Source: an uncultured Holophagaceae bacterium (GTDB taxonomy: Bacteria > Acidobacteriota > Holophagae > Holophagales > Holophagaceae). From it: DNA of 61,843 nucleotides. Made by a program: the position numbers and the translations under genes. Under the pieces are notes generated by a model, which was not told where the DNA came from, did no database searches, and worked only from the letters and a program-made list of their open reading frames with translations. The stretch spans positions 1-61,843 of the forward strand of contig CAIMQW010000063.1 of NCBI GenBank assembly GCA_903843705.1, read 5' to 3'. Positions 7,135 through 18,979 of the stretch are shown piece by piece (the first letter of the stretch is position 1; every line of letters begins with the position of its first letter).

Positions 7135-8280
7135 ATGCGCAAGCACCTCCTCGCCCTGGGCGCCACCTTGGTCCTCACCCCCTGTCTCATGGCGCAGAAG
7201 ATCGGCGTCATCAACTCCATGAGCGGTCCTGAGGCGCCCATCGGGGAGAACATCACCAACGGCATCAAGCTCGCCGAGGAGGATCTCAAGAAGAAGGGGA
7301 TCAACCTGCAGCTGGTGTGGGAGGACGACACGGGCAAGCCCCAGATCTCCATGAGCGCCATGGAGAAGCTGGCGACCCGGGAGAACGTGGTGGGCGTGGT
7401 GGGCCCCTACACATCGGCCTGCTCCAACGCTGTCGCCAAGCTGGCCGAGAAGTACCATGTGCCGCTGTTGATTCCCGCTGCGGCCAAGGAGGAAATCACG
7501 CGCCAGGGCCTCGCCCATGTCTTCCGCATGAACGCTCCTGCCGACAAGTACGCCTCCAGCCTGATCGATGCCGCGGCGTCCCTGGGCAAGCCCAAGACCA
7601 TCGCCTTCATCTACGAGAACACGGACTTCGGCACCTCCACCTCGAAGACGGCTAAGGACTATGTGGCTACCAAGGGCATCCAGGTGGTGGCGGATGTCTC
7701 CTACCCCAAGGGCTCCGCTGACTACCGGTCGACGCTCGCCCAGATCAAGTCGAAGAACCCAGATCTGGTGTTCATGGTCTCCTACGTGGCCGACGCCATT
7801 CTCCTCATGCGGCAGTCCCGCGAGGTGGGACTCCAGCCCCAGGCTTTCCTCGGCGCCGGGGCCGGCTTCACCACCGTCGAGTTCGCCAAGGAACGGGCGA
7901 TCTCCGACAATGTCATCTCCTGCACTCAGTGGACCGATGATGTGAACTGGCCTGGCGCGAAGGACTTCGGCGCCCGCTACAAGGCGAAGTTCGGCAAGGA
8001 ACCCACCTACCACGCCGCCTGCGCCTACGCCTCGATGATCATCATGGCCGAGACCGCCAAGGCCTCCGGCGGTGATCGCACCAAGACCCGCACCGCGCTG
8101 AAGGCCGGCAAGTGGAACGGCATCATGGGCGAGGTGAAGTTCGCCGACTACGACGGCTTTACCAACCAGAACAATCACCAGATGCTCGTCCAGCAGATCA
8201 TCGCCGGGAAGTACGAGACCGTTCTTCCCGCTCAGTTTGCGACCAAAAAGGCGATCTATCCCTTCCCCAAGTGGAAGTGA
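7135..8280 (+). CDS. ABC transporter periplasmic substrate-binding protein, branched-chain amino acid type
   Basis: 381 residues. A signal peptide ends near CLMAQ at ~22. The mature part is a type I periplasmic binding fold of the LivJ/leucine-isoleucine-valine family: KIGVINSMSGPEAPIGENI at the N-terminus, VGVVGPYTS and the DFGTSTSK region. I chose ATG 7135 because GGAG precedes it and the signal peptide starts there; an in-frame extension to 7063 would run through the terminator. It heads an operon with two permeases and two ATPases. The ligand could be a branched-chain amino acid, an amide or a small or aromatic acid; the adjacent acyl-CoA genes make a carboxylate plausible. Confidence 0.9.
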   Translation: MRKHLLALGATLVLTPCLMAQKIGVINSMSGPEAPIGENITNGIKLAEEDLKKKGINLQLVWEDDTGKPQISMSAMEKLATRENVVGVVGPYTSACSNAVAKLAEKYHVPLLIPAAAKEEITRQGLAHVFRMNAPADKYASSLIDAAASLGKPKTIAFIYENTDFGTSTSKTAKDYVATKGIQVVADVSYPKGSADYRSTLAQIKSKNPDLVFMVSYVADAILLMRQSREVGLQPQAFLGAGAGFTTVEFAKERAISDNVISCTQWTDDVNWPGAKDFGARYKAKFGKEPTYHAACAYASMIIMAETAKASGGDRTKTRTALKAGKWNGIMGEVKFADYDGFTNQNNHQMLVQQIIAGKYETVLPAQFATKKAIYPFPKWK

Positions 8281-17880: not shown

Positions 17881-17966
17881 GGCTTGAGTCTAGGAGCCAA
17901 GGCGGCGCGCGTGAAACCCTTCTGCGATTCCCTTGCAGGTCGCGGTGGCCCTGGCATGATGACTCC

Positions 17967-18431
17967 ATGATCCTCTGGCACTACGAGCTGACCACTCCCA
18001 TGGGACCGATGCGCGCCGCCTTCGACGGCCGTGGCAGGCTCCAGGAGCTGGTGCTGGAGGGCCATGATCCCCGCAAGACCAGTCCGCTGCCCCCCCGGGA
18101 ACAGCGGGAGGCGAAGCGCTTTCTGGACCGTCAGATCGAGGCCTATCTGGCAGGCACCCTGCGCACCTTCACCGTGCCCCTGGACCCACAGGGGACCGCC
18201 ACTGAGCTGCGGGTCTTGGAGACCATCCGGACCATTCCCTACGGACAGACCCGCCAGCCGGCGGACCTGGCCGCCTGGCTGGGCATCGATGAGGACGTGG
18301 TGGTCATGGCCTGCGCGGGCAACCCCATCGCCCTGCTGATCCCCGCCCACCGGGTGATCCTGCCGGGTGATGGACCTCTTCCGAAGGCCTTGCGGCACCT
18401 TGAGACAGGGATGGGATGGCAGAAGCCCTGA
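17967..18431 (+). CDS. Alkyltransferase-like protein: Ogt homologue with active Cys replaced by Ala
   Basis: 154 residues with the full two-domain Ogt layout. The active-site PCHR motif reads PAHR (residues 126-129), so it cannot accept alkyl groups. The SY that follows IPYG in active enzymes reads RQ, and the C-terminal GYAGG segment is missing. Alkyltransferase-like proteins bind O6-alkylguanine and hand lesions to nucleotide-excision repair; Thermus TTHA1564 is a known Cys-to-Ala example. An intact paralogue lies 35 bases downstream in the same orientation. The upstream ribosome site is weak. Confidence 0.85.
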   Translation: MILWHYELTTPMGPMRAAFDGRGRLQELVLEGHDPRKTSPLPPREQREAKRFLDRQIEAYLAGTLRTFTVPLDPQGTATELRVLETIRTIPYGQTRQPADLAAWLGIDEDVVVMACAGNPIALLIPAHRVILPGDGPLPKALRHLETGMGWQKP

Positions 18432-18466
18432 TAACAAAAAACCGTGATTCTGCCATGCTGGAGCCC

Positions 18467-18979
18467 ATGCCAGAGACCCTTCACATGCTCAGCACACCCT
18501 TTGGGGAGTTGGGCGCAGCCTTCGATGGCGATGGGCGTCTGGCTCAGCTAGTCCGGGTCTACAAGGCGCCCCCGGCACTGCCCGAGGGGCCGCTGCCCCG
18601 GAGCCTGCCCTACCTGCGGCGCCAGCTGGAGGCCTATTTCTCGGGCAACCTGCGCGACTTCAACATCCCCATGTTCGTGGAAGGCACCGAATTCCAGCGG
18701 CGGGTCTGGAAGGAGCTGCAGAAGATCCCCTACGGCCAGGCTGTGAGCTACCTGGAGCTGGCGCGCCGCCTGGGCGACGAGAAGTGCATCCGGGCCGCGG
18801 CCCGCGCCAACGCGGCGAACCCCATCGCCATCCTGATCCCCTGCCACCGGGTGATCGGTTCTGATGGCTCCCTCGTGGGCTACGCCGGCGGGCTGGACAT
18901 GAAGGAATTCCTGCTGCGCCTGGAGGGGGTCCTCCCCAAGGCGCCGCCCCAGCCGAGGCTGCCGCTGAGCTGGGACTGA
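18467..18979 (+). CDS. ogt: Methylated-DNA--protein-cysteine S-methyltransferase
   Basis: 170 residues. It transfers O6-alkyl groups from guanine to its own Cys126, in IPCHRVIG. The helix-turn-helix (QKIPYGQAVSYLELARRLG) and the GSLVGYAGGL loop are intact. ATG 18467 aligns its N-terminus exactly with the upstream paralogue; ATGs at 18455 and 18416 are in-frame alternatives, the last overlapping the upstream gene. Its stop abuts the stop of convergent speD. Confidence 0.9.
   Translation: MPETLHMLSTPFGELGAAFDGDGRLAQLVRVYKAPPALPEGPLPRSLPYLRRQLEAYFSGNLRDFNIPMFVEGTEFQRRVWKELQKIPYGQAVSYLELARRLGDEKCIRAAARANAANPIAILIPCHRVIGSDGSLVGYAGGLDMKEFLLRLEGVLPKAPPQPRLPLSWD

Follow-up and report, generated by a model that had tools for sequence, protein, structure and literature searches.

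A Probable Ogt-Family Pseudoenzyme with a Conserved N-Terminal Domain Adjoins an Intact Ogt in Geothrix

Introduction

Active proteins of the Ogt/AGT (MGMT) family have a two-domain fold and carry an active-site Cys, a Tyr, an arginine finger and a GYxGG loop, together with an Asn hinge and a His. The nearest solved example for the proteins considered here is the OGT of M. tuberculosis (4WX9, 4BHB). In the sections of PMC5751216 that deal with this enzyme, an N-terminal flap (residues 29–39, with R37) is described that repositions upon DNA binding and is proposed to aid the formation of cooperative clusters, and an R37L variant had a tenfold lower affinity, with the reaction rate being unaffected.

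The known relatives without the active-site Cys are the alkyltransferase-like proteins (ATLs), such as E. coli ATL, S. pombe Atl1 and T. thermophilus TTHA1564. TTHA1564, which is annotated as an ATL, has Ala at the active site. More usually, ATLs carry Trp at this site. According to PMC10779285, Tyr and arginine finger are both retained in ATL proteins, and the N-terminal domain and the Asn hinge are missing.

Here, we describe a pair of adjacent Ogt-type genes found in a stretch of 61,843 nucleotides from an uncultured Holophagaceae bacterium (GCA_903843705.1, contig CAIMQW010000063.1, analyzed as a whole and hereafter termed the window) that belongs to Geothrix, a bacterium of soil and sediment, together with their counterparts in that genus and in other genera of the family. 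In the literature listings that we searched, we found no report of an Ogt pseudoenzyme from Geothrix or from Acidobacteriota.

Results

The first gene of the pair, c1 (17967..18431, plus strand), encodes a protein of 154 aa with the Ogt fold and IPAHRV at the active site, as judged from the open reading frame, a PF01035 match and the predicted structure. The second, c2 (18467..18979, plus strand), encodes an intact Ogt of 170 aa that we refer to as type 2. Both proteins match PF01035 in Pfam (9.3e-10 for c1 and 1.4e-32 for c2), c2 also matches TIGR00589 above the cut-off, and the two are 44% identical across 129 aa. The first-pass annotation had noted PAHR and a missing GYAGG stretch in the first copy, and a complete protein with PCHR in the second. 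Both observations were borne out, since the translation of ORF 17967–18431 contains ...NPIALLIPAHRVILPGDGPLPKALRHLETGMGWQKP, with Ala in place of Cys and without GYAGG, and the ORF holding c2 (18416–18979, plus strand) reads ...NPIAILIPCHRVIGSDGSLVGYAGG, with Cys, Tyr, arginine finger and GYxGG all present. The start of c2 that is conserved among relatives is the ATG at 18467 and not the one at 18416, which leaves a gap of 35 nt between the genes. An overlap of c1 and c2 with translational coupling was therefore ruled out, and the statement that the copies are of about the same length is better given as 154 versus 170 aa. Upstream and divergent lies mqnA (menaquinone biosynthesis, PF02621; 17071..17880, minus strand), which served as a locus marker across the family, and downstream and convergent lies a gene for S-adenosylmethionine decarboxylase (PF02675; 18980..19366, minus strand). 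Further neighbours, identified by reading the sequence, encode peptidases, an rRNA methyltransferase, an HD-GYP-like protein and FabZ.

A conserved promoter-like element of the type TGN[CG]AT precedes each gene of the pair in the window, namely TGGCATGAT (17952..17960, plus strand), 6 nt 5' of the c1 start codon, and TGCCATGCT (18451..18459, plus strand), 7 nt 5' of the c2 start codon; they are conserved in 41 and 44 upstream regions, respectively. The region 5' of c2 additionally has a conserved A-tract and GATTCTG. These two were the only convincing copies within the window, where a third match, at 7288, lies 5' of the TTG of another ORF. From the upstream sequences, independent promoters for c1 and c2 are likely. 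The proposal of a tandem unit in which both genes are co-expressed thus stands as regards the two-gene unit, with c1 immediately 5' of c2 in 41 of 41 genomes, and is conjectural as regards co-expression, each gene having its own conserved element. We also observed a c2-type element, ATTCTGNCATGCT (L182:1501-1513, and L180), 5' of a gene that was classed by eye as cold-shock-like and whose leader spans about 100 nt. The idea that the element is special to c1 and c2 was rejected on the basis of this close copy, which is present in G000 and G021; the element is probably just a strong promoter of the ordinary kind.

A full-length c1, free of internal stops, was present in 41 of 47 Geothrix genomes, so the gene is not a product of chance or of an assembly error. 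In two assemblies c1 is interrupted, by unknown bases (G011) and by a contig end (G051), and its lack in three more (G016, G052 and G063) was not scored as a loss, since mqnA is also absent from these assemblies. A loss was seen in G022, a close relative, in which an internal deletion (L051, G022:C56, around 2280–2420) removes about 116 of the 154 codons of c1, including those of the constrained N-terminal domain. Read from the sequence, what is left is a short in-frame remnant of 38 codons, and c2 is retained alone, 96.8% identical to that of the window. Hence, c1 is dispensable in at least one lineage. The decay of the first copy in relatives, which the first-pass annotation had named as a sign that would refute its proposal, occurred in this 1 of 47 genomes, with no trend. 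A scan with two c1 signature peptides across 84,980 species, each represented by a single genome, returned 38 loci; whole-protein matches to c1 were confined to records whose titles name Geothrix, Holophagaceae or Acidobacteria, and two Streptomyces loci matched c1 only partially.

The losses in c1 go beyond the two features described initially. When residue columns were compared on an alignment of 41 c1 and 41 c2 sequences, the SY-motif Tyr and the arginine finger were also absent from c1 in 41 of 41 full-length copies. The Tyr column held P in 34, S in 3, V in 2, I in 1 and M in 1, and the arginine-finger column, whose exact partner position is uncertain owing to a small length difference, held D in 25, E in 13, G in 2 and A in 1. 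At the active-site Cys, c1 had A (24), S (8), T (5), C (3) or V (1), so that Ala is not fixed and Trp never occurs, and the GY of the GYxGG loop was deleted in all 41. Kept were the Asn hinge and the His (41/41 each), as well as the Glu column, with E in 33 and D in 8. Thus, c1 has lost all the tested residues of base flipping and alkyl transfer except the Asn hinge, the His and the Glu. In contrast, c2 was invariant at every column examined, with Cys, Tyr, arginine finger and GYxGG each at 41/41, and with the Cys at 44/44 in a wider c2 set. Over the recognition-helix stretch, taken as the 12 residues before the Asn hinge, the mean charge was −2.6 in c1 versus +2.9 in c2, a comparison that was limited to c2 and c3 (a third Ogt, see below). 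A low charge of the C-terminal domain does not in itself set c1 apart, since the net charge of the whole domain is low or negative in most type-1 single-copy Ogts (described below) too. As a separate observation, in three related genomes (G005, G017 and G048; L035, L046 and L130) the former active site of c1 carries Cys, either retained or regained, despite the absence of Tyr, arginine finger and GYxGG.

Selection was assessed by pairwise Nei–Gojobori dN/dS, for which only pairs with a dS of 0.15–1.5 were used. The overall medians were 0.178 for c1, 0.169 for c2 and 0.194 for c3. By domain, c1 had 0.098 in the N-terminal domain (residues 1–75; 17967..18191, plus strand), its most constrained part, with an amino acid diversity of 0.147, and 0.252 in the degenerate C-terminal domain (residues 76–154; 18192..18428, plus strand), while the corresponding values were 0.258 and 0.081 for c2, and 0.245 and 0.125 for c3. 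The ratio of amino acid diversity between the N- and C-terminal domains was 0.47 (0.31–0.68) for c1, 3.82 (2.50–6.38) for c2 and 2.55 (1.78–3.90) for c3, and a Fisher test on the counts of changes gave p 9e-25. Because genome pairs are not independent, the contrast between c1 and c2 was also checked in disjoint pairs, and it had the same direction in 20 of 20. Moreover, 43 of the 66 invariant columns among 22 c1 sequences fall in the N-terminal domain. Purifying selection on c1 is therefore concentrated in the N-terminal domain, the opposite of c2 and c3; c1 does not evolve neutrally, and the constraint on it mirrors, with the domains reversed, that on the active-type copies. In single-copy genera, the type-1 N-terminal domain is already slightly the better conserved half (N/C 0.87–0.89, on raw distances), and hence part of the pattern predates the loss of catalysis.

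The AlphaFold2 model of c1 (pLDDT 84.9; 86.0 for that of c2) predicts a complete two-domain Ogt with no added domain. Its best structural match was 4wx9_A, the M. tuberculosis OGT bound to DNA (Z 17.9, rmsd 2.2, 145 aligned residues). ATL structures aligned to the model only from residue 76 onwards, the best being S. pombe Atl1 (Z 8.6, model residues 76–153). Residues 34–46 of c1, DPRKTSPLPPREQ (18066..18104, plus strand), form a type-1 signature, and the DPRKTS segment of c1 aligns with the N-terminal flap region, with R37, of M. tuberculosis OGT.

Outside Geothrix, 30 other genomes of the family were considered, and Ogt loci from 21 of them were compared. The Ogt adjoining mqnA was a single type-1 protein, that is, with a c1-like N-terminal domain, in seven, and a single c2-like, type-2 protein in five; in others it belonged to different types. 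A tree of 77 rows, with Geothrix represented by a reduced set of 20 genomes and with several weak forks, placed c1 within a type-1 group and c2 with G070. Type 1 and type 2 formed separate lineages in this tree, which argues against the simple division of a single gene within Geothrix; the pattern would be explained by an ancestral tandem array that underwent differential loss and also by recurrent replacement at a single locus. Four type-1 single-copy Ogts (G068, G069, G079 and G080) lie at the same locus beside mqnA and, unlike c1, have the Cys, Tyr and arginine finger intact and no type-2 neighbour within the stretch examined. Identity to these four was 0.647 (64.7%) in the N-terminal and 0.402 in the C-terminal domain for c1, and 0.358 and 0.667, respectively, for c2. 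Judged by sequence, then, the N-terminal domain of c1 is that of the type-1 single-copy Ogts at the same locus in sister genera, and c2 keeps the catalytic domain.

Of the type-1 single-copy proteins compared, 9/9 keep the Cys and 5/9 have lost the arginine finger, so a drift from normal base flipping does not require the loss of the Cys, and these sequences suggest that in the type-1 lineage such a drift may have preceded it. The replacement of the arginine finger in these five was Q in G066, G067 and G088 and H in G076 and G078 (L099, L100, L108, L109 and L112). Another inactive homologue was found in a further Holophagaceae genus, g16, in three genomes (G082, G083 and G086; L117, L119 and L120). 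Like c1, it has Ser or Thr for Cys (PSHR/PTHR), no GYxGG and an N-terminal domain; unlike c1, it is not beside mqnA in the stretches examined and sits on a long separate branch of the tree, and is therefore apparently an independent case of an inactive Ogt homologue.

The third Ogt, c3, was found in 29 of the 47 Geothrix genomes, in one of them on a separate contig. In G047, the sole genome scanned in this respect, the gene between c2 and c3 (L129:4293-5705) encodes a fusion of an Ada zinc-binding domain, an AraC-type HTH and an HhH-GPD (AlkA-like) domain. No match to a fusion of this type was detected in the genome of the window nor in G000, G021, G062 and G013, and G008 had fragments only.

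Co-evolution of c1 and c2 was examined by mirror-tree analysis. A first run on the C-terminal domains gave a partial r of 0.60, with 0/500 permutations. With two unrelated neighbours as controls (31 genomes), the value for the C-terminal domains of c1 and c2 was 0.43, compared with 0.57 for the c1 C-terminal domain and pep and 0.61 for RlmD and pep. Co-evolution was consequently dropped, since the signal was no higher than that for unrelated neighbours once these controls were added.

Discussion

Compared with active Ogt/AGT proteins, c1 shares the two-domain fold, the Asn hinge, the His and an aligned N-terminal flap, and differs in having no Tyr, arginine finger or GYxGG, in the absence of the Cys from 38 of 41 copies, and in its acidic recognition stretch. 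On these grounds, c1 is very probably a pseudoenzyme of the Ogt family. That its role lies in assembly or in a partnership with c2 is a more tentative part of our reading. Taken together, we regard it as an evenly balanced proposition that c1 is an Ogt-family pseudoenzyme maintained by selection for its N-terminal domain, with that domain perhaps acting in assembly or in partnership with c2.

Four other explanations were weighed against this one. The type-1 N-terminal domain might serve a partner or ligand that has nothing to do with Ogt, and its pairing with c2 would then be just an accident in the history of the tandem array. The negative mirror-tree result is in keeping with such a moonlighting role, as are the promoter-like elements that c1 and c2 each possess and the single-copy species in which the arginine finger was lost next to a retained Cys, where the drift from repair needed no c2; yet c1 never occurs without c2 in Geothrix (41/41), and its model is a plain Ogt fold with no extra domain. 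We consider this explanation unlikely, albeit a serious contender.

A lower probability attaches to c1 being a slowly decaying, still folded relic of a redundant Ogt. The sweeping loss of base-flipping and transfer residues would be expected of a relic, and so would the drift at the former Cys among A, S, T, V and C, the internal deletion in G022 and a dN/dS of the C-terminal domain three times that of c2. Against decay, no internal stop was present in the 41 genomes, c1 and c2 have similar overall dN/dS values (0.18 and 0.17), the N-terminal domain of c1, at 0.10, is under one of the strongest constraints measured in this analysis, and most of the 66 invariant columns lie in that domain. On this evidence, a relic is improbable.

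It is very improbable that c1 is a regulator of the response to alkylation, one that might, for example, titrate or hold Ogt or the Ada–AlkA regulator whose gene lies nearby in many species: c3 in 29 of the 47 genomes and the fusion gene between c2 and c3 in G047 would provide the setting for it, but c1 persists where the fusion gene is absent (G000, G021, G062 and G013) or fragmented (G008).

The initial proposal that c1 is an ATL protein, flagging lesions by binding O6-alkylguanine without repair and passing it to UvrABC, is favoured by the replaced Cys, the Ogt-like C-terminal fold that matches S. pombe Atl1 and the position beside a repair gene, but it was rejected as hardly credible on residue columns, domain content and recognition-stretch charge, since c1 has lost the Tyr and arginine finger and kept the Asn hinge in 41/41 (the converse of ATLs), its N-terminal domain, missing in ATLs, is present and its best-conserved part, its recognition stretch is acidic, and small residues occupy the Cys site, never the Trp that is usual in ATLs.

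As a pseudoenzyme maintained for its N-terminal domain, c1 would serve in assembly as a subunit without catalytic activity, its likeliest associates being c2 or other Ogt molecules. Such a role is suggested because DPRKTS aligns with the M. tuberculosis OGT flap for which cooperative clustering has been proposed, and the DPRxTSPLPPxEQRE flap of c1 would be the contact surface. A further step, which we put forward as doubtful, is that the work of the ancestral Ogt could be separated into repair, done by the C-terminal domain, and ordered assembly or some other contact, made by the N-terminal domain, and that these two functions were divided between the adjacent genes; in Geothrix, c1 would perform the N-terminal job and c2 the chemistry, in mixed c1–c2 clusters on DNA. 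To our knowledge, such clusters would be the first hetero-oligomeric Ogt.

The known Cys-less relatives, the ATLs, have no N-terminal domain but still recognize lesions. In c1 the situation is inverted: recognition and chemistry appear to have been lost, and the N-terminal domain is kept, with selection on it stronger than in either of the active-type paralogues. Sister genera offer intact and half-degraded intermediates for comparison, the latter with the arginine finger lost and the Cys kept. The pair thus represents a natural separation-of-function experiment on the Ogt N-terminal domain, whose role is so far proposed and unsettled, and mixed c1–c2 clusters, if they do form, would make that role directly testable.
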